The notes beneath the pieces were generated by a model. It was not told where the DNA came from, did no database searches, and saw only the letters and a list, made by a program, of their open reading frames with translations. Shown in pieces: positions 1-37,749 of a stretch of 55,824 bases of DNA. Each line of letters starts with the position of its first letter. The first letter of the stretch is position 1. The translations under genes were made by a program, and so were the position numbers. The DNA is from Cryomorphaceae bacterium (lineage in GTDB: Bacteria; Bacteroidota; Bacteroidia; Flavobacteriales; Schleiferiaceae), in NCBI GenBank assembly GCA_020832345.1, contig JAFIEY010000073.1, positions 1-55,824 on the forward strand, given 5' to 3'.

Positions 1-140
1 GTCCACTCTAAAAAGGATGATTTCAATCAAAATCGACGCGGAGGGGATTTTTGAACCGGAGCTAACCAGCTGTTAGTGAGGATTCAAAAATCTACCGACA
101 AGGAAGATTTTGGCAGAAAGGGACTTTTTAGAGCAGACTC
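1..140 (+). repeat. MITE-like intergenic repeat, copy 1
   Basis: First of four related non-coding elements in this window. The left end starts GTCCACTCTAAAAAGGATGA and the right end, read on the other strand, starts GAGTCTGCTCTAAAAAGTCC, so the termini form an imperfect inverted repeat. The interior holds a near-palindrome around CTAACCAGCTGTTAG. The left end may be cut by the window edge. It lies just downstream of the stop of the minus-strand barrel gene. No ORF of its own. Confidence 0.8.
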
Positions 141-16959: not shown

Positions 16960-17095
16960 GAGTTTACTCCAAAAAGTCCCTTTCTGCCAAAATATTCCTT
17001 GTCGTTTGATCTTTAAATCCTCACTAACGGCTAGTTTGCTCCTGATCAGAAATCCCCTCGATTTTGATTAAAATCATCATTTTTGGCGTGGACTC
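16960..17095 (-). repeat. MITE-like intergenic repeat, copy 2
   Basis: Same family as the element at 1-140 but inverted. On the plus strand it begins GAGTTTACTCCAAAAAGTCC and ends with the complement of GAGTCCACGCCAAAAATGAT, so both ends match the terminal inverted repeat GAGTCyrC. Interior matches include the CTTCCTTGTCG-like and AACGGCTAGTT segments. It sits between two divergent genes (DUF983 and thiL), upstream of the thiL promoter. Confidence 0.8.
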
Positions 17096-20201: not shown

Positions 20202-22559
20202 ATGAAAAGATTTTTTCTCCTTTTCGCCTTGCCCGTTTTGACCTTGTTTTTGGGTCAACCGCAACAAGCTGATGCTGCCCACTTGATTGGTGGTGAACTC
20301 ACCTATAAGTATATAGGTGACTCGACCAACATCCCTCATCACTACCGTATAGACTTGGTGCTCCACCGTACAACCCGTTGGACGACGCTAAACTTAGGTG
20401 CTAGCTATCAGGTTTGTATCCGCTCTTCTTGTCACCCTAACCAAACAATAACCGTTTCATACCCACAAGGTTTTCCTTCTACCGGAGAACCAGTTCCAGG
20501 TCAGGATGAATGTGTAGAAAGTGCATCTCAGGACTTCACTCCGGTATTTCAACATCTATATACTGGAACTGTAATTCTGGGTGGTACTTGTGCAGATTAC
20601 AAATTTTCCCACGCAATGATTTGCTGTAGGATAGGAATTGGTAACATTGTAAATTATTCTGCAAACGGTGGAGGTGGTTCAACCAATTATTTAGAAGCAA
20701 CCCTAAATAACACCCAAGGCGAAAATACCTCACCACAGTTTGTGGCGCCCCCAGCAAAATCTTTTTGTGTCAGCAACTTCTTTACATGGTCTCAGGCTTC
20801 TTGGGAGCCTGATAACGACTCCATTGAATACGAATTTGGCACTGCGATGAACGGCCCTTGCAACGGCCCCGGTCAAAACATGATTTTCGCAGCTGGATAT
20901 TCTCAACCTGACCCCTTAGGACCTGCCGTAACCGGGCTTACCATCAACACCACTTTGGGTATTTTTGAATTTACCACAACGACAATAACCGGAAACTTCA
21001 TTGTGGTCATCGTTGTAAAGGAACTGCGATTACACCCTAACGGAAATTTTTATTATGAAGTCGGCTCTGTTATGCGAGAGATGCTCATAAATATTGTAGG
21101 TACCTGTTTGCAGGCTACTGCCAATGGCCCTCGCTTTGATCTTAGCATACCTGGCATATACATGGACGATACCATATCCACAGGCGTTCTGGGCATTATC
21201 GGGAATAATTATCCCCACCCCAATGCAGATTCGGTGCCAAATGCTAATAGTCCTACAGGTTACGTCATGGAATGGCCCGTTATTGAGTATGACTGTTTTG
21301 ACTCCGTTATTACCCTTGAATTTGAGACCAATGTACAGTGTATGTCCATTACCGAATCAGGTTCAGAGTTCAGATTGGTTGGTCCGGATTCCAATCTAGT
21401 CCCCATAACTTTTGTGGATCGAAATTGTAATCTTGCATTGGAAACCAAAATTGTACATCTCTATCTCCATCAACCTCTGGCAAAGGAAGGGGATCATTAT
21501 ATGTACATCAAAGAAGGCACGGATGGCAATACCATACTCAACTCCTGTGGTTTCCCAATGGATGAGTTCTTTGCCCTTATCATTCGAGTCATCGATTGTC
21601 CGGATCCGCTTTACGACATCAAGAATGTCAGTGTGGTCAATAATGACCATATCCAAATATTCTGGGAACCCGACTCCACCTCATTCCCTACCCATGCGAC
21701 TAGTGGGTGGTACTTCTTCCGATCCGACGATGGTGGTGGAACATTTAATAGAGTAGGATCTATTCGGGGACAAAATGCGCCAACTGCCAGAAACTGGATT
21801 GATTACGGCGTGTCCAACGACGATGTAAATAGCCAAACTTATCAATATCAGGTTCAAATGGAGGTGAGTGGTAATTTCTACCAATTTACCCGCGACATTA
21901 CCAGTATATACCTGAAGCGAGGCCCTGGTTGGGGTAACTACAATAACTTCCAATGGAACCTTGAATGGAATGATTACGACGGATGGGTAGCACCCGAATA
22001 CCACCTCATGATTTGGGATATCGATTCCACCGGACTTTGGACTCCGGTCAATCAGCCTACTAATACTACGACCAATACCACCATTACTTTTGACTATGAG
22101 CAGGTTGCTGGTAGAATGGGAGATAATTTTGCGCTGCGAATTGATGCCAAAGATCCAAACTTCTCCGGTATTGACTACACCGCGAAGTCCAATTATGTCT
22201 ATTTGAAAATACCCACAACGCCTCCTCCCCCCATAATTGATACCGTTGCGCTAGACGACCTTGTCATTCCCAATGTATTTACACCAAATGGTGATGGTAA
22301 AAACGATGTATTTTACATCAAGGGAATTGAAGGATTCCGCAGTGCGGAAGTCATTTTTACCAACCGCTGGGGAAATGTGGTCTATCGCAATAGTAACTTC
22401 CAAAGGGATAATGCTTGGGATGGCAGAGATCAAACCACCGGTCAGATGGTTTCTGATGGGGTTTATTTCTACATCATTCGATTACGTGGTAGCATAATGG
22501 GTTTTCCTGATGTTGAGGAAACTGGTTCAATCTCCATCTTTGGCAGTGGAAGCAGATAA
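20202..22559 (+). CDS. Secreted gliding-associated protein with T9SS type-B-like C-terminal domain (paralogue A)
   Basis: 785 residues. Signal peptide MKRFFLLFALPVLTLFLGQP..., cleavage near ADA|AHLIGG. The mature start AHLIGGELTYKYIGDSTN matches the opening module of a large family of flavobacterial cell-surface proteins. The middle is beta-rich and Cys-containing. The last 95 or so residues carry the gliding-motility-associated sorting domain (VIPNVFTPNGDGKNDVFYIK, VIFTNRWGNVVY, WDGRDQTTGQMVSDGVYFY). Cargo with this domain is exported by the T9SS encoded 5 kb upstream. It is followed by a strong terminator. Paralogue B, near-identical over most of the mature part, starts 464 bp downstream. 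Confidence 0.9.
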   Translation: MKRFFLLFALPVLTLFLGQPQQADAAHLIGGELTYKYIGDSTNIPHHYRIDLVLHRTTRWTTLNLGASYQVCIRSSCHPNQTITVSYPQGFPSTGEPVPGQDECVESASQDFTPVFQHLYTGTVILGGTCADYKFSHAMICCRIGIGNIVNYSANGGGGSTNYLEATLNNTQGENTSPQFVAPPAKSFCVSNFFTWSQASWEPDNDSIEYEFGTAMNGPCNGPGQNMIFAAGYSQPDPLGPAVTGLTINTTLGIFEFTTTTITGNFIVVIVVKELRLHPNGNFYYEVGSVMREMLINIVGTCLQATANGPRFDLSIPGIYMDDTISTGVLGIIGNNYPHPNADSVPNANSPTGYVMEWPVIEYDCFDSVITLEFETNVQCMSITESGSEFRLVGPDSNLVPITFVDRNCNLALETKIVHLYLHQPLAKEGDHYMYIKEGTDGNTILNSCGFPMDEFFALIIRVIDCPDPLYDIKNVSVVNNDHIQIFWEPDSTSFPTHATSGWYFFRSDDGGGTFNRVGSIRGQNAPTARNWIDYGVSNDDVNSQTYQYQVQMEVSGNFYQFTRDITSIYLKRGPGWGNYNNFQWNLEWNDYDGWVAPEYHLMIWDIDSTGLWTPVNQPTNTTTNTTITFDYEQVAGRMGDNFALRIDAKDPNFSGIDYTAKSNYVYLKIPTTPPPPIIDTVALDDLVIPNVFTPNGDGKNDVFYIKGIEGFRSAEVIFTNRWGNVVYRNSNFQRDNAWDGRDQTTGQMVSDGVYFYIIRLRGSIMGFPDVEETGSISIFGSGSR

Positions 22560-22576
22560 ATTTTTTAGTCATAACT

Positions 22577-22612
22577 AAAAAAAGCCGTCAAGTTTTTGAC
22601 GGCTTTTTTTGT
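22577..22612 (+). terminator. Intrinsic terminator after paralogue A
   Basis: AAAAAAAGCCGTCAA-gttt-TTGACGGC followed by TTTTTTT; stem of about 12 bp, short loop and T run, 18 bp after the stop. Confidence 0.9.
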
Positions 22613-22630
22613 TTGAAAATTATAAGAAAG

Positions 22631-22765
22631 CATCCACTCCAAAAAAAATGATTTCAATCAAAATCGAGGCGATTTTTGAACCGGAGTTAACCAACTGTTG
22701 GTGAGTCTTCAAAAGTCGATCGACAAGGAAGATTTTGGCAGAAAGGGACTTTTTGGAGCAGACTC
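22631..22765 (+). repeat. MITE-like intergenic repeat, copy 3
   Basis: Same orientation as copy 1. The left end reads CATCCACTCCAAAAAAAATG, the right end on the other strand GAGTCTGCTCCAAAAAGTCC. The base after CTC is C at both ends, whereas it is T at both ends in copy 1, so the pairing of the ends is kept. It sits between the two tandem gliding-associated paralogues. Confidence 0.85.
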
Positions 22766-22825
22766 AAAAATATATCCCATAACCGAGAGAAGTTTTCTTT
22801 GACTTCCTTCGATAATCACAATTAT

Positions 22826-22864
22826 AAAACCCCAAAGCCAAAAACGCTTTGGGTTTTCTTTTTA
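22826..22864 (+). terminator. Orphan terminator-like hairpin
   Basis: AAAACCCCAAAGC-caaaaac-GCTTTGGGTTTT followed by TTTT-like tail. It is a full terminator shape but there is no gene between it and the preceding terminator, which already closed paralogue A. It may be a remnant of the duplication, the end of a small RNA, or an attenuator for paralogue B. Confidence 0.55.
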
Positions 22865-22865
22865 C

Positions 22866-23023
22866 CTGGCAGATATATACAAGTTGTTTGTAAAAAATCG
22901 TTATCTCAATAAAAATAACCTTTAACTAAACAGATTCATATATCACTCATTTTCAACAACAAGGATACACTTTCTTCAATACATTTGAACATTAATTAAA
23001 CAAATGTTTGTAAAAAAAATGCC
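22866..23023. other. AT-rich leader of paralogue B with an inverted repeat
   Basis: No ORF. ACATTTG (22981-22987) and CAAATGT (23001-23007) form a 7 bp inverted repeat just upstream of the start of paralogue B at 23024. A possible operator or chance. Confidence 0.35.
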
Positions 23024-25384
23024 ATGAAAAAGCACATCCGGTTCTTTCAAATTCTCAGTTTAATCTCCATTACTTTACTTTCCTTTCATGAAACTAAAGC
23101 AGATCACTTGATTGGTGGTGAACTCACCTATAAATATATCGGTGACTCAACCAACATACCTCACCACTACCGGATTGATTTGGTTCTCCACCGCACAACC
23201 CGTTGGACGATGCTTAATCTAATAGCCAACTATCAAGTTTGTATTCGCTCATCTTGTTTTCCCAGTCAAACCATAACCGTTTCTTACCCCCAAGGTTTTC
23301 CAGCTTCCGGGGAACCTGTGCCCGGACAAGATGAATGTGTTGAAAGCACTTCAAATGATTATACCCCCGTTTTCCAACATATTTACACCGGAACCGTAAT
23401 TTTGTCAGGTCCTTGTTCGGATTATAAGTTTTCCCATTCAATGGTTTGCTGTAGGATTGGAATTATCAGGATAGCTAACTACAGCGGGATGGGAACAGGT
23501 GGTAATACCAATTATTTAGAGGCAACTCTAAATAACACCCAAGGCGAAAACACCTCCCCACAGTTTGTTGCCCCTCCGGCAAAATCTTTTTGCACCAACA
23601 ATTTCTTTACTTGGTCTCAAGCTTCCTGGGAGCCGGATAACGATTCCATCGAATACGAATTTGGGACTGCGATGAATGGCCCTTGCAACGGCCCTGGTCA
23701 AAACTTAATTTTCGAAGCTGGTTTTTCCCAAGCTGACCCATTGGGGCCTGCCGTTACTGGTCTTACTATCAACACCACTTTGGGTATTTTTGAATTTACC
23801 ACAACAACATTAACAGGAAACTTCATTGTGGTCATCATTGTGAAGGAACTACGACTGCACCCAACAGGTAACTTCTATTATGAAGTCGGTTCAGTCATGC
23901 GAGAGATGCTTATAAATATTGTTGGACAATGTCTCACTGCAACGGCAAATGGTCCTCGATTTGATCTTAGCATACCGGGCATATATATGGACGATACCAT
24001 ATCCACCGGGGTTCTTGGCATTATCGGGAATAATTATCCCCACCCCAATGCGGATTCGGTGGCAAATGCTAACAGTCCTACCGGATACGTCATGGAATGG
24101 CCGGTCATTGAATACGATTGCTTCGACTCCGTTATTACCTTGGAATTTGAGACCAATGTACAGTGTATGTCCATTACCGAATCAGGTTCAGAGTTTAGGT
24201 TGGTTGGTCCCGACTCTAACCTTGTGCCCATAACCCATGTGGATCGAAATTGTAATCTCGCCTTGGAAACCAAAATTGTACATCTCTATCTCCATCAACC
24301 CCTGGCAAAGGAAGGCGATCATTATATGTACATCAAAGAAGGTACGGATGGAAATACCATTCTCAACTCCTGTGGTTTCCCAATGGATGAGTTTTTTGCC
24401 CTCATCATTCGAGTCATCGATTGCCCGGAGCCGATTTACGACATCAAAAACGTCAGTGTGGTCAATAACGACCATATCCAAATTTTTTGGGAACCCGACA
24501 CCAACTCATTCCCTGCCCATGCGACCAGTGGATGGTACTTCTTCCGCTCCGACGACGGTGGTGGCTCCTTTAACAGGGTGGGCTCCATTCAGGGACAAAA
24601 CGCACCAACTGCCAGAAATTGGATTGATTACGGCGTATCCAACGACGATGTAAATAGCCAAACACATCAATATCAAGTTCAAATGGAGGTGAGTGGGAAT
24701 TTCTACTCATTCACCCGCGACATTACGAGTATTTACCTTCGACGCGGAACAGGTTGGGGCAATTACAATAATTTCCTATGGAATCTGGAGTGGAATGATT
24801 ACGATGGTTGGGTAGCTCCCGAATATCACCTCATGATATGGGATATTGATTCCTCTGGACTTTGGACACCGGCCAATCAGCCCACGAATACCACAACCAA
24901 TACTTCCATTGCATTTAATTACGAGCAAGTAAAAGATAGGAAAGGTAATAGTTTTGCCCTGCGGATAGATGCCAAAGATCCTAATTCCTCGGGTATCGAT
25001 TATACAGCAAAATCAAATTATGTCTATTTGAGAATTCCCACAACACCTCCAGACACACCAATTGATACAGTAGCGATAGATGACCTCGTTATCCCCAATG
25101 TTTTCACCCCAAATGGTGATGGCAAAAACGATGTATTCCACATAAAAGGCATTGAAGGATTCCGCAGTGCGGAAGTCATTTTCACCAATCGTTGGGGCAA
25201 TGTAGTTTATCGCAACTCCAACTTCCAAAAGGATAATGCCTGGGATGGCAGAGACCAAACCACCGGACGGATGGTAGCCGATGGAGTTTACTTCTACATC
25301 ATTCGCTTGCGTGGCAGCGTTATGGGGTATCGAGACGTAGAAGAAAGCGGTTCGATTTCTGTCTTTGGAAACGGAACGAGGTAA
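23024..25384 (+). CDS. Secreted gliding-associated protein with T9SS type-B-like C-terminal domain (paralogue B)
   Basis: 786 residues, same domain layout as paralogue A, including the HLIGGELTYKYIGDSTN opening and the VIPNVFTPNGDGKNDVFHIK sorting domain. Long stretches are identical to A (for example GENTSPQFVAPPAKSFC), but the signal peptide is unrelated (MKKHIRFFQILSLISITLLS...) and a block around residues 110-150 is clearly different. Upstream sequence also differs from A. This pattern suggests a tandem duplication followed by divergence of the export signal and one surface-exposed block, or gene conversion of the rest. It ends in a heptamer repeat and faces convergent lepA. Confidence 0.9.
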   Translation: MKKHIRFFQILSLISITLLSFHETKADHLIGGELTYKYIGDSTNIPHHYRIDLVLHRTTRWTMLNLIANYQVCIRSSCFPSQTITVSYPQGFPASGEPVPGQDECVESTSNDYTPVFQHIYTGTVILSGPCSDYKFSHSMVCCRIGIIRIANYSGMGTGGNTNYLEATLNNTQGENTSPQFVAPPAKSFCTNNFFTWSQASWEPDNDSIEYEFGTAMNGPCNGPGQNLIFEAGFSQADPLGPAVTGLTINTTLGIFEFTTTTLTGNFIVVIIVKELRLHPTGNFYYEVGSVMREMLINIVGQCLTATANGPRFDLSIPGIYMDDTISTGVLGIIGNNYPHPNADSVANANSPTGYVMEWPVIEYDCFDSVITLEFETNVQCMSITESGSEFRLVGPDSNLVPITHVDRNCNLALETKIVHLYLHQPLAKEGDHYMYIKEGTDGNTILNSCGFPMDEFFALIIRVIDCPEPIYDIKNVSVVNNDHIQIFWEPDTNSFPAHATSGWYFFRSDDGGGSFNRVGSIQGQNAPTARNWIDYGVSNDDVNSQTHQYQVQMEVSGNFYSFTRDITSIYLRRGTGWGNYNNFLWNLEWNDYDGWVAPEYHLMIWDIDSSGLWTPANQPTNTTTNTSIAFNYEQVKDRKGNSFALRIDAKDPNSSGIDYTAKSNYVYLRIPTTPPDTPIDTVAIDDLVIPNVFTPNGDGKNDVFHIKGIEGFRSAEVIFTNRWGNVVYRNSNFQKDNAWDGRDQTTGRMVADGVYFYIIRLRGSVMGYRDVEESGSISVFGNGTR

Positions 25385-25424
25385 TGGTGGATGGTGGATG
25401 GTGGATGGTGGGTGGTGGATGGTG
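25385..25424 (+). repeat. Heptanucleotide tandem repeat
   Basis: TGGTGGA repeated 5.7 times (third unit TGGTGGG), starting right after the stop of paralogue B and 43 bp before the convergent lepA stop. A candidate variable-number repeat; it is G-rich on the plus strand. Confidence 0.85.
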
Positions 25425-25467
25425 GATGGTGTGACAAATTTCACTATTCACCGCTCACTACTCCCTG

Positions 25468-33057: not shown

Positions 33058-35139
33058 ATGAGAAAGAATTACGTAATCGCGGCAATGCTGTTTTCAAGCT
33101 TTGCTTTCGCGCAGGAATCCTTGGTAGCCCCTGAGGCACCATCAAACCTTGAGGTGTTTGACGGCGTTACCAAGTTGGATGGGGCAGCTCCCCTTTTCGT
33201 AGATGGTAAAGAAACCACAATTTGGTCTGAAGATTTTTCAAATGGAATTCCTTCTTCATGGACAAATGCAGGTTTTACCGCAACGGGTGCCCCAATGCCC
33301 AATGCCGTATGGGAATATCGCGGACCTAATACAAATCCCGACAACACTGTGGGTAGTCGTGGCCAGTTTGCTGGTACCGCACTGCCAATCCTATCACCTA
33401 CAGCCGCAAATGGGTTTGTTATTTTTGATTCGGACTATTTAGACAATGGCGGAACGCCTCCATTTGGTTCTGGATCGGCTCCGGCTCCACACCTTGGTAC
33501 TTTGGAATCGAATGTTATTAACCTAGCAAATGAACCAAGTGTGATTTTTGAAATGTATTCCTTTTCAAGAAAATTTGCCGGTTTGTTATACGTAGCATTT
33601 AGTACAGATGGCGGCGTAACCTATCCCGACACCATAGAAATTGCTTCTTCAGTTGGTGTAAACGGATCTACAGCCAGAAATTACAGAACTTTGGAAAACG
33701 TTTCCAGTATCATTGGAGGTGAATCAAATGTTCGTCTGAAAATAATTTTTGACGGTACAATTGAATTAAACCCCAACAATCCTTCCGGTTTTTATTATTG
33801 GATGGTTGATGATATTGCAATTAAGGCAGCACCCAACACCTTGTTCGCTTTTGAAGAGTTTGAAGTACAGCCAGGTGAGTTTGCCCCTGCTTTTGATGTT
33901 TTATCGGACAATCCAGAAGTATATTACAACTTTTTTGGAGGTGGTTTAGTTCCCCCCGGTGTTTACGGTTCAAGCACCCTTCGTGAAAACCGCGGATTCG
34001 CATTTAACGCCAACGTTCGCAATATTGGAGCAGCGGTTCAAACAAACATGAAACTCGAGGTGGAAATATACAAAAATGGTGCTTTGGAAGCAACAGTTTC
34101 TTCTCCCCCAGTTTCGCTTTTACCAGTAATGGATATTGCACCATATTCTGTGCTTACCTCAAATCATTGGACGCCTACAACTAAGGGCATTTACGAATGT
34201 GTGTTTAAAGTAAGTTCAGACTCTTTGACACTGGCCAATAACTCAACGGACAATATCAATGGCCGTCCGGACACCGTGCGTATTAACATAAATGATAATA
34301 TGTGGGGACATGATTTCGGACGTTTCAACAATTCAATTGGAACGGTTCAATTGGGAGATGACGGCTCGGCAATAGCAACAAGATACGAAGTTGCTGAGGG
34401 GGCTCGTGATCAGGCGATCGGAGCATTTTTGGGTATTTCAACCACCATGCAACCCGGAGGTTTGGTAGAGTTTAAAATTTATCGCAATCTGGATTTGTCA
34501 GTAGGAATGCCTCCTATAGCCTCCGCATCAAAAACGATTAGTGCAGCGGATGTTTCTAATGGATTTGTGGAAATTGATTTCTATGATCCCGCAACCAATA
34601 GCGGTCACGCAGATATGGAATACCCCAATAGCAATCCTGTAACAGCCCTGCCGGACTCAGCATTCTGGCTGGTGGCAGAGTTTTTCTCCAACTCAGGTGC
34701 TAATCCTATTGTGGTTCGCAACGACCAAACTACTGCACCCCCATTGCAAGCTTTGATGTATATCACAGATGAAAATAGATGGTTCAGCCGCTATACCAGT
34801 TCGCGAAATTTTGGACGTCCACATCTTCGCTTAATCACTTGTTCTTCGACTGATGCTTGTAATCTTAGTGTTGAGCGTTTGGAAACAAATCACAACATCA
34901 AGTATTTCCCGAACCCAACCAGCGGTCGTTTAATGCTTGACTTCACCGAGGCACGTGGACAAGATGCACGCATTACCTTGACTGATCTAAACGGTAAAGT
35001 TGTATTGGTAGAAGATGCTCGTACAGTTGCCGGTGCTCAGCACCAAATTGACCTCGGTCGCATGGCTTCCGGTGTTTACGTCATGACCATTGAATTTGGT
35101 GGCAAGAAATCTACCTACAAAGTAATTGTGGAAAAGTAA
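33058..35139 (+). CDS. Secreted T9SS cargo protein, tandem copy 1
   Basis: 693 residues. Signal peptide MRKNYVIAAMLFSSFAFAQ. The mature part is beta-rich; it includes a MAM/jelly-roll-like opening (TIWSEDFSNGIPSSWTNAGF) of the kind found in secreted proteins with cleaved-adhesin type domains. The last 80 or so residues (NHNIKYFPNPTSGRLMLDFT through GVYVMTIEFGGKKSTYKVIV) are a type A T9SS sorting domain with its PNPTSG and terminal basic strand. The function beyond secretion is unknown; adhesion or matrix binding is only a guess. A terminator and a short repeat copy follow, then tandem copy 2. Confidence 0.9.
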   Translation: MRKNYVIAAMLFSSFAFAQESLVAPEAPSNLEVFDGVTKLDGAAPLFVDGKETTIWSEDFSNGIPSSWTNAGFTATGAPMPNAVWEYRGPNTNPDNTVGSRGQFAGTALPILSPTAANGFVIFDSDYLDNGGTPPFGSGSAPAPHLGTLESNVINLANEPSVIFEMYSFSRKFAGLLYVAFSTDGGVTYPDTIEIASSVGVNGSTARNYRTLENVSSIIGGESNVRLKIIFDGTIELNPNNPSGFYYWMVDDIAIKAAPNTLFAFEEFEVQPGEFAPAFDVLSDNPEVYYNFFGGGLVPPGVYGSSTLRENRGFAFNANVRNIGAAVQTNMKLEVEIYKNGALEATVSSPPVSLLPVMDIAPYSVLTSNHWTPTTKGIYECVFKVSSDSLTLANNSTDNINGRPDTVRININDNMWGHDFGRFNNSIGTVQLGDDGSAIATRYEVAEGARDQAIGAFLGISTTMQPGGLVEFKIYRNLDLSVGMPPIASASKTISAADVSNGFVEIDFYDPATNSGHADMEYPNSNPVTALPDSAFWLVAEFFSNSGANPIVVRNDQTTAPPLQALMYITDENRWFSRYTSSRNFGRPHLRLITCSSTDACNLSVERLETNHNIKYFPNPTSGRLMLDFTEARGQDARITLTDLNGKVVLVEDARTVAGAQHQIDLGRMASGVYVMTIEFGGKKSTYKVIVEK

Positions 35140-35255: not shown

Positions 35256-35310
35256 GAGTCTGCTCTAAAAAGTCCCTTTCTGCCAAAATCATCCTTTTTG
35301 GAGTGCACAC
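35256..35310 (-). repeat. MITE-like intergenic repeat, copy 4 (internally deleted)
   Basis: About 55 bp consisting of the right end (GAGTCTGCTCTAAAAAGTCC..., through CTGCCAAAAT) joined directly to the left end (complement of GTGCACTCCAAAAAGGATGA). All of the interior of copies 1-3 is missing, leaving a near-perfect hairpin of the two termini. It lies between the two tandem T9SS-cargo genes. Confidence 0.8.
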
Positions 35311-35652: not shown

Positions 35653-37749
35653 ATGAGAAGAAATTACGTAATTGCAGCGATGCTCGCTTCCGGCTTAGCT
35701 TTCGCGCAGGATCCGGTAAAAGCTCCGGAGGCACAAGCCCAATTGGAAGTGTTCGATGGAGTTGACAAATTAGATGGGGTTGGCCCCATATTTATTGACG
35801 GAAAAGAAACCACTATTTGGTCTGAAGATTTTGGCAGTGGAATACCGTCTGGATGGACAAATACAGGATTCACTGGTACAGGAGCGCCATCATCAAATGC
35901 GCTTTGGGAATACCGTGGGCCGAATACAAACCCCGACAATACCGTTGGTAGTAGAGGGCAGTTTTCCGGAATAAATAATAACCCGCCTACCAATCAACCA
36001 ATAAATTCTCCAACAGCCGCTAACGGTTTTGTTATTTTTGATTCGGATTATTTAGACAATGGAGGTACACCAAACTTTGGTTCCGGTGCATCACCTGCGC
36101 CTCACATTGGTACGCTAGAATCTGGTGTTATTAATTTAGCCAATGATCCAGATGTTATTATCGAATTTTTCAGTTATTTCCGCACCTTCGGTTCTAGGCA
36201 TTTTGTCGCCTTTAGTACGGATGGAGGAACAACTTATCCCGATTCCATTCAAATAGCACCAAGTGTTGGAATTAATGACGCAACCCCAAGAGATCACAGA
36301 ACATTGGCAAACGTCTCCAGTATTATTGGAGGTCAATCAAATGTTCGCATTAAATTTATCTATGAGGGATTGAATAATAATGGAACCGTTGATGACGGAT
36401 ACTATTTCTGGATGTTGGATGATGTAGCCATCAAAACTGCTCCTCATACATTATTCTCCTTTGAGCGTTTTGAGGTTCAACCTGGTGAATTTGCGCCAGC
36501 CTATGACGTCCTAGCCGATAACCCTGAAGTTTATTACAACTTCTTTGGAGGTGGCATGATTGGCCCGGCCAAATATGGTACTAGTACCCTACGTGAAAAC
36601 CGCGGAATTGCTTTTGACGCCAACGTACGTAACATTGGAAAAAGTCCACAAACCAATGTAAAACTGGAAGTAGAAGTCTATCGCGGTGGATCTTTAGAAA
36701 CCACCCTTTCTACCCCACCAGTTTCACTACTTCCTTCTATGGACATTGCGCCATTCTCAGTACTTACCACTTCATTCTGGACGCCAACACAAAAAGGTAT
36801 TTACGCTTGCGTATTTAAAGTAAGTTCAGATTCTTTGTCCTTAGCAGATAATTCAAGTGACAATCTTAATGAACAACCTGATACCATTTTTATCACCATA
36901 TCAGATGATTCTTGGGGACATGATTTCCGTCGCTTTAACAACACCATCGGAACTGCTCAATTGGGTGATGATGGCTCTGCTATAGCTGTACGTTATGAAG
37001 TTGTAGAAGGTGTCCGTGATCAAGCAATTGGTGCATTTCTTGGTATTTCAACAAATATGCAACCAGGAGGATTGGTGGAATTTAAACTCTATCGCAATCT
37101 TGACTTGCAAACAGGTATGCCACCTATCGCCTCCGGATCAAAAACCATTAGTGCAGCAGATGTAACGAACGGTTTTGTAGAGGTTGATTTTTACGATCCC
37201 GCTACCAATAGTGGTCATGCCGACATGGAATACCCCAGCAGCAATCCGGTTACAGCACTGCCTGATTCAGCCTTCTGGTTAGTTGCAGAATTCTTCTCTA
37301 ACTCTGGCGCTAATCCCATTTTAGTGCGGAATGACAGAACAACTGAACCTCCCCTACAAGCTTTGATGTACATTTCAGATCAAAATACTTGGTTTAGCCG
37401 CTATACAGCTTCTCGGAACTTTGCACGGCCACACCTTCGCTTACAAACTTGTTCTTCTACAGATGCTTGTAACTTAAGCGTTGATCGTATTGAGACAAAC
37501 CACAACATCAAGTTTTTCCCTAACCCTACTAGTGGTCGCATAATGCTTGACTTCACTGAAGCTAAGGGACAAGATGCACGTATTACACTTACCGATATGA
37601 ATGGTAAAGTAGTATTGGTTGAAGATGCTCGTACCGTTGCCGGTGCACAGCATCAAATGGATCTCGGACGCATGGCCTCTGGTATGTATATCATGACCAT
37701 AGAATTTGGCGGAAAAAAATCCACCTATAAAGTTTCTGTGGAGAAATAA
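35653..37749 (+). CDS. Secreted T9SS cargo protein, tandem copy 2
   Basis: 698 residues, the same architecture as copy 1: signal peptide MRRNYVIAAMLASGLAFAQ, TIWSEDFGSGIPSGWTNTGF opening, central blocks (NPEVYYNFFGGGMIGPAKYG) and a type A T9SS sorting tail (NHNIKFFPNPTSGRIMLDFT...). The C-terminal third is almost unchanged between copies (VRNDRTTEPPLQALMYISD versus the copy 1 counterpart), while the first third differs more, including a short insertion (NNNPPTNQPINS). This suggests duplication with faster change in the N-terminal, probably ligand-facing, domain. It ends at its own terminator. Confidence 0.9.
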   Translation: MRRNYVIAAMLASGLAFAQDPVKAPEAQAQLEVFDGVDKLDGVGPIFIDGKETTIWSEDFGSGIPSGWTNTGFTGTGAPSSNALWEYRGPNTNPDNTVGSRGQFSGINNNPPTNQPINSPTAANGFVIFDSDYLDNGGTPNFGSGASPAPHIGTLESGVINLANDPDVIIEFFSYFRTFGSRHFVAFSTDGGTTYPDSIQIAPSVGINDATPRDHRTLANVSSIIGGQSNVRIKFIYEGLNNNGTVDDGYYFWMLDDVAIKTAPHTLFSFERFEVQPGEFAPAYDVLADNPEVYYNFFGGGMIGPAKYGTSTLRENRGIAFDANVRNIGKSPQTNVKLEVEVYRGGSLETTLSTPPVSLLPSMDIAPFSVLTTSFWTPTQKGIYACVFKVSSDSLSLADNSSDNLNEQPDTIFITISDDSWGHDFRRFNNTIGTAQLGDDGSAIAVRYEVVEGVRDQAIGAFLGISTNMQPGGLVEFKLYRNLDLQTGMPPIASGSKTISAADVTNGFVEVDFYDPATNSGHADMEYPSSNPVTALPDSAFWLVAEFFSNSGANPILVRNDRTTEPPLQALMYISDQNTWFSRYTASRNFARPHLRLQTCSSTDACNLSVDRIETNHNIKFFPNPTSGRIMLDFTEAKGQDARITLTDMNGKVVLVEDARTVAGAQHQMDLGRMASGMYIMTIEFGGKKSTYKVSVEK

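Follow-up and report, generated by a model that had tools for sequence, protein, structure and literature searches.

Target-site duplications and nested insertions in a probable MITE family with hundreds of copies in a Cryomorphaceae genome

RESULTS AND DISCUSSION

Four copies of a short intergenic element in the window

The window, by which we mean the whole stretch of 55,824 nucleotides analysed here, is contig C159 of a fragmented assembly of 4,026,091 bases in 260 contigs. It contains four copies of a short element (Table 1), all of which had been noticed in a sequence-only reading of this DNA; the coordinates given there stand for copies 1, 2, and 4, while the start of copy 3 moves from 22631 to 22630. 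The element is bounded by 17-bp imperfect inverted repeats (GAGTCCACTCYAAAAAG and GAGTCTGCTCYAAAAAGTCCC). When up to three mismatches are allowed, the right-end pattern GACTTTTTRGAGYRGACTC has exactly four matches in the window against 0.09 expected by chance, with four or more matches in none of 100 shuffles. The copies lie in both orientations, as had been claimed, and our own reading of them agrees that they are non-coding and placed between genes. The contig begins at the third base of the element in copy 1, whose first two bases are therefore missing.

Table 1. Copies of the element in the window and the terminal repeats of copy 3
Feature	Coordinates	Strand	Description
MITE copy 1	1..140	+	142-bp class, both modules, T subfamily
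MITE copy 2	16960..17095	-	136 bp, diverged; flanks match at 1/6 positions, duplication gone
MITE copy 3	22630..22765	+	136 bp; outer left GAGTC mutated to GCATC
Left terminal inverted repeat of copy 3	22630..22646	+	mutated; consensus GAGTCCACTCYAAAAAG
Right terminal inverted repeat of copy 3	22749..22765	+	CTTTTTGGAGCAGACTC
MITE copy 4	35256..35310	-	55 bp, internal-deletion class

Two pairs of tandem paralogues lie in the same window (20202-22559 and 23024-25384, with 83.7% nucleotide identity; 33058-35139 and 35653-37749, with 73.2%) and encode proteins with type IX secretion tails (CHU_C; Por_Secre_tail). One copy of the element sits between the members of each pair, in our reading just after a T-run hairpin; a pattern scan of 22400-23100 did not recover this hairpin and listed another, at 22831-22853. 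Directly after the second paralogue of the first pair is a short tandem repeat of GGTGGAT (window positions ~25385-25431).

Copy number and placement in the genome

The genome was queried with the region of copy 3 (22630-22768). With up to two mismatches the termini have 505 + 522 matches (1,027) in the whole genome against 6 + 3 (9) for a reversed-pattern control, and with up to one mismatch 423 + 463 against none. A sample made up of the window and 80 further stretches (1,309,352 bp, about a third of the genome; a non-random choice, several contigs having been picked for having matches) holds 185 complete copies, 183 of them distinct, which occupy 21,855 bases. Scaling by the counts of ends gives about 493 complete copies genome-wide, or about 490-510 overall. 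The expectation, raised from the four copies alone, that many more would exist is thus borne out, and the element is clearly not confined to the window.

The midpoint lies outside open reading frames of at least 110 codons in 182 of the 185 copies, although such frames cover 81.8% of the sample. Measured from the copies, gene 3' ends are at a median distance of 42 bp and gene starts at one of 128 bp, and both orientations occur across the sample. AT-rich targets and selection could each be the cause of this intergenic placement. The element is also found within the outermost 145 bases at 9 of 58 contig starts and 4 of 39 contig ends, compared with 3.5% of internal windows, and it probably explains part of the fragmentation of the assembly.

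Size classes and modules

Complete copies in the sampled genome range from 54 to 143 bp (within a search window of 45-175 bp), and the 55-bp class accounts for 29 of the 185. Stop codons and size classes that break the frame indicate, by eye, that the element is non-coding. An open frame that starts at an internal ATG in the 125- and 131-bp classes was considered as a trace of a coding origin; it is absent from the 142- and 136-bp classes and was judged by eye to be due to chance. Internal deletion between short direct repeats appears to account for the classes of 55, 84, 125, 131, and 136 bp; in our reading, AAGGATGATTT/AAGGAAGATTT and AAAATC/AAAATC are fitting repeat pairs, and the size classes also fit the loss of a 6-bp module and of an apical module. 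End subfamily, 6-bp module, and apical module occur in all eight possible combinations, which indicates that the modules have been repeatedly recombined or lost.

Target-site duplications, nested insertions, and empty sites

An exact 6-bp duplication flanks 87 of 182 copies (3 of the 185 were left out as having no flank), against a mean of 3.2 and a maximum of 8 in 500 shuffles; the first sample gave 55 of 102 copies against a shuffled mean of 1.7. At other lengths exact duplications are close to expectation (10 observed versus 8.9 expected at 3 bp; 2 versus 2.9 at 4 bp), somewhat raised (8 versus 1.4 at 5 bp; 3 versus 0.4 at 7 bp), or absent (8 and 9 bp). The duplicated sequence has the consensus AANNTT, with A at -6, T at -1, and A/T adjoining, in a wider TTTA..TAAA context. 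The sequence-only reading had seen no obvious target-site duplication, and this remains true of the window, whose three testable copies match at 1/6, 4/6, and 3/6 positions, but not of the family. Exact duplications occur in the 55-, 84-, 125-, 131-, 136-, and 142-bp classes alike, and thus the short forms insert too.

Two copies are nested inside others: one (L108 16661-16802) is flanked by AAGTGA on both sides, and the other lies within L276 1356-1645 with ATGATT on both sides, its outer copy retaining an AAAATT duplication of its own. As the outer sequence is known in uninterrupted form from other copies, these two insertions amount to base-exact empty sites. A comparison with 297 kb of four related genomes (G001, G002, G003, and G009) yielded one orthologous region: the counterpart in G002 of L268 13810-13933 is an intergenic region of ~104 bp that does not have the element present at L268, and the intergenic bases of the two do not align. 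Five tandem pairs of copies are exactly 6 bp apart, suggesting that new copies may target the duplication adjoining an old one.

Short non-coding length, terminal inverted repeats, a target-site duplication, and many dispersed, mainly intergenic copies are thus found together in this family. It is almost certainly a MITE, i.e., a non-coding fold-back DNA transposon moved by a transposase made elsewhere, that has gone through a recent burst. Its ends, target preference, 6-bp duplication, nested insertions, and copy number can be read directly from the DNA, and its mobility is read from these scars of past transposition. In the mechanism that we propose, the transposase would recognise both ends, GAGTCCACTCYAAAAAG and GAGTCTGCTCYAAAAAGTCCC, and cut an AT-rich palindromic target (approximately TTTA-AANNTT-TAAA) with a 6-bp stagger, into which the element would be inserted; gap repair would then leave the 6-bp duplication. 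The enzyme would probably be a DDE-type transposase acting in trans, and an autonomous element presumably exists, possibly at a contig-end terminus considered below (L278:12168-12298). We take the family to be, most plausibly, a selfish element persisting between genes, where it does least harm.

REP/REPIN palindromes, moved by the single-strand (HUH) RAYT transposase, resemble this family in being small, palindromic, intergenic, present in hundreds of copies, and devoid of a transposase of their own. To our knowledge, however, REP/REPIN elements with RAYT have no target duplication, nor would one of 6 bp be expected from single-strand HUH transposition. Given the 6-bp duplication and the long inverted ends of our element, an origin of this kind is extremely improbable.

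The end-to-end fold and the regulatory-RNA alternative

The consensus folds into one long hairpin from end to end (-54.8 kcal/mol), with folding z scores of -5.9 for copy 1 and -2.3 for copy 3 of the window. Such a fold, along with the closeness of copies to gene 3' ends (median 42 bp, against 128 bp for 5' ends), might be taken as a sign of a structured regulatory RNA, or of a 3' untranslated element, that is retained locus by locus for its function. We examined pairing in 109 distinct copies of 131-143 bp. As the RNAalifold result was empty (0.0) both for the 109 copies and for 100 of them, pairs were counted on the fold of the single consensus. Of 5,277 paired cells 4,888 are kept, whereas 4,862 are expected if both sides vary independently, and most of the excess lies at the single pair that marks the subfamilies, where 95 are kept versus 76.6 expected and 41 of the 57 double changes fall. 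Pairing is hardly above what independent decay would give, and hence the fold more likely reflects the transposing form of the element than maintenance at the individual sites. Further, an Rfam search of the window found only a tRNA and no match to the element over the gathering score, so that identity with a known housekeeping RNA did not arise; copies occur in both orientations; and the four congeners have between 0 and 10 matches to the ends (two with none, the others with 6 and 10, at up to one mismatch). On the pairing statistics above all we reject the regulatory-RNA alternative as highly improbable. The sequence-only reading had left the choice between a non-autonomous mobile element and a regulatory RNA undecided: the copies, duplications, nesting, and burst speak for the former, and the pairing and Rfam results speak against the latter.

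Age and subfamilies

Within the MITE family two end subfamilies can be told apart. Exact duplications are retained by 45 of 69 copies of the T subfamily (T at position 11 and A at its partner) and by 30 of 81 of the C subfamily, with 32 copies in neither. In the 147 of 185 copies that belong to the five main size classes, the share with exact duplications falls across quartiles of divergence from the class consensus (25/36, 20/36, 13/36, and 13/39; Spearman rho -0.30, p 1.8e-4), and the least diverged quartile is within 2.4% of the consensus. The decay of duplications with divergence, combined with the closeness of the youngest quartile to the consensus, indicates that the element moved recently. 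Taken with the few matches in congeners, these sequence comparisons suggest a recent burst to ~500 copies in one species of the genus.

Search for the mobilising transposase

A search of the genome with two Pfam models found six DDE_Tnp_1 (PF01609) genes and one rve gene, and no MITE-type ends surround any of the seven as far as the loci reach. The inverted repeats that bracket these genes, namely CAGGG.. at L127, CCTGTTTTGTGCG at L128, and TTAACCCA.. at L131 and L132, are all unlike the MITE ends; none was identified at L129, nor at L130, whose contig ends in the gene. An ordinary MITE copy lies at L127 outside the insertion sequence, and a truncated one lies beside the rve gene (L133). The transposase contig of L129, seen again as L299 (G000:C239), is 3,004 bp long with 58% G+C, compared with 42% in the sample, and is possibly a contaminant or a recent import.

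In the 1.31 Mb examined, no two such ends that lie 400-4,000 bp from each other have flanks that match. The sole plausible long pair (L108:13276-14706, 1,431 bp apart) has unmatched flanks and consists of two broken, facing MITE copies that share the variant GACGTGG; the 373-aa frame that it encloses is, by eye, a secreted-protein gene rather than one for a transposase. The earlier remark that no transposase with such ends accompanies the copies therefore extends from the window to the seven transposase genes and the 1.31 Mb. Neither the element nor its ends had a match in phage records, plasmid records, or viral contigs. The best place to seek an autonomous element is L278:12168-12298, where a near-perfect end, GAGCCCACTCTAAAAAGTCCCC, is followed by an AT-rich, non-MITE interior that runs off the contig; this could equally be another mini-element.

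A second repeat family is present in the same genome (L078:16172-16811, L078:8270-8674, L079:2343-2923, and L098:18428-18785), with matches of 300-500 bp that are 79-88% alike. Among the matches listed in a 780-kb self-comparison, no repeat of at least 300 bp exceeds 88% identity.

An IS1182-like lead

One candidate for the mobiliser is a distant IS1182-like (DUF772 + DDE_Tnp_1_6) insertion sequence. As multicopy insertion sequences collapse during assembly and are left unbinned, it would on this reading be missing from the contigs. This, the best lead, comes from genome G397, in which insertion-sequence ends, GAGTCTACCGCAAAAAGCC, lie beside a 69-aa open frame cut by the contig end (L169), and a further single end, GAGTCTACTCCAAAAAGTCCC, runs off its contig at an ATG, much as the L278:12168 terminus of our own genome has the right end and a non-MITE interior that runs off the contig. 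No model of Pfam or NCBIfam recognises the 69-aa fragment. The relatives that it has in haloarchaea (seven plasmid records, 42-52% identity) score 120-125 bits with the IS1182 model in the three proteins scanned, below the cut-off of 270 bits; their loci have ends of the type GAG..C..(A/G)GAAAGGG and, if the end is set at GAG, exact 7-bp duplications at two of four loci. A search of viral contigs with the fragment gave one locus. The IS1182-like transposases of the haloarchaeal plasmids (L207-L210) come, by the source line, from salt or soda lakes in three of the four records.

Several observations weigh against this candidate. The IS1182 model has two weak matches in our own genome, both on genes already found with DDE_Tnp_1, and none in G002, G003, G009, or G397. 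A profile of the archaeal subgroup matches one of 395 genomes of the phylum (G550), which has none of the ends. An end pair was obtained at 26 of 30 IS1182 loci from the order; not one of these pairs is MITE-like or has an exact 6-bp duplication. Twenty further stretches yielded no such ends except those already known from G397 and two loose, chance-like matches (L218 and L223). Moreover, IS1272, which belongs to the IS1182 family, inserts without duplicating its target according to the passages on it in PMC5678879. Thus, while the terminal motif of these elements is reminiscent of ours (GAG.C..C....AAAAG in G397), the archaeal duplication is 7 bp rather than 6 bp and an IS1182-like transposase was not detected in the genomes carrying the MITE. 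The more specific notion of an IS1182-derived MITE is not supported, as these searches found no IS1182-type transposase with matching ends and the lead failed a co-occurrence test. A distant IS1182-like mobiliser missing from the assembly is, on balance, unlikely.

Related ends in other Bacteroidota

A member of another genus of the same family (G009) has its own variant of the element, with 48 + 49 matches against 2 + 2 in the control. The four congeners (G001-G004, 88-99% complete) have genomes of 2.3-2.6 Mb compared with 4.0 Mb here, a difference for which the MITE accounts for little. Across 60 genomes, 12 have end matches, our own included, and 9 have control matches. With a longer end pattern, an order-wide draw gave matches in 15 of 395 genomes, our own included; only our own genome, G002, G003, and G009 have several, ten have single matches, and these single matches may be due to chance, as at least five genomes have control matches. 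In G063 two facing ends span 129 bp with a different interior. A draw from the phylum, with GAGTCYRCTCYRAAAAGTC at up to one mismatch, likewise gave 15 of 395 genomes, our own included, with control matches in five, so that some of its single matches are chance ones.

From the other 14 genomes we took 26 loci among the matches listed, with ~1.5 kb on each side, and paired each end with a facing end within 400 bp, disregarding the flanks. A partner was found at 13 of these 26 loci and no small partner at the other 13; after two repeats of the same place were dropped, 11 distinct elements from eight genomes remained. An exact 6-bp duplication flanks seven of the 11, while other lengths from 3 to 9 bp are exact in at most two. 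Among the remaining four, one matches at 5/6 and one at 4/6 positions, and two (L236 and L243) were probably given the wrong partner; with an alternative partner, from a ranking that favoured matching flanks, L243 matches at 6/6. The elements are 96-307 bp long, too short for a transposase gene, and nine of the 11 fold from end to end (z scores of all 11 from -2.6 to -10.1 with mononucleotide shuffles). Their interiors have no similarity between genomes or to our MITE at E 1e-3, and within ~1.5 kb per side none of the 26 loci contains facing ends that are separated by 400-2,600 bp and have flanks that match.

That unrelated elements across the phylum carry near-identical ends points to a shared transposase, for which it is now possible to search. 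One could go further and posit a fold-back superfamily throughout Bacteroidota that shares only its ends (GAG[TC]CYRCTCYRAAAAGTC) and the 6-bp AT-rich duplication and is moved by a single unrecognised, stand-alone transposase encoded outside such ends. We regard this broader proposal as decidedly doubtful; were it true, the transposase would be a double-strand counterpart of the REP/RAYT partnership.

Comparison with known MITEs

Correia elements target TA, and both Correia and ERIC elements differ from this MITE in end sequences and in target. With its GAGTC... ends and 6-bp AANNTT duplication, our family is therefore distinct from Correia, although the Correia elements of Neisseria and the ERIC elements of enterobacteria are likewise short, non-coding, intergenic, and multicopy in the sections of a review that cover them (PMC10969869). 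Within Bacteroidota, the account of MITECca01 of Cardinium describes 169 copies, mostly intergenic, of ~240 bp, with an IS982-family parent, ISCca4, in the genome (PMC9769881, in the text on this element), whereas no parent was found for ours. BrickBuilt of Porphyromonas gingivalis, from the same phylum, is likewise an intergenic, non-coding MITE, with a consensus end GAGACC...; it differs, as described in the relevant parts of PMC4596501, in having 19 copies, internal 23-nt tandem repeats, and duplications of variable length. The same parts of that paper compare the ends of P. gingivalis MITEs with the IS5-family ISNme1. The main text of the review, as available to us, contains no word beginning bacteroid or flavobacter, and the ends reported here are not described in the portions seen of the open-licence literature on MITEs and insertion sequences of Bacteroidota; given that scope and the poor searchability of sequence motifs, this is weak evidence of novelty, by which the element may be a previously undescribed MITE family of known type. 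In copy number, the same sections of the review give more than 120 Correia copies in N. gonorrhoeae and 711 ERIC copies in Photorhabdus luminescens (PMC10969869), and ~500 apparently recent insertions in a 4-Mb genome come close to the higher of these figures.
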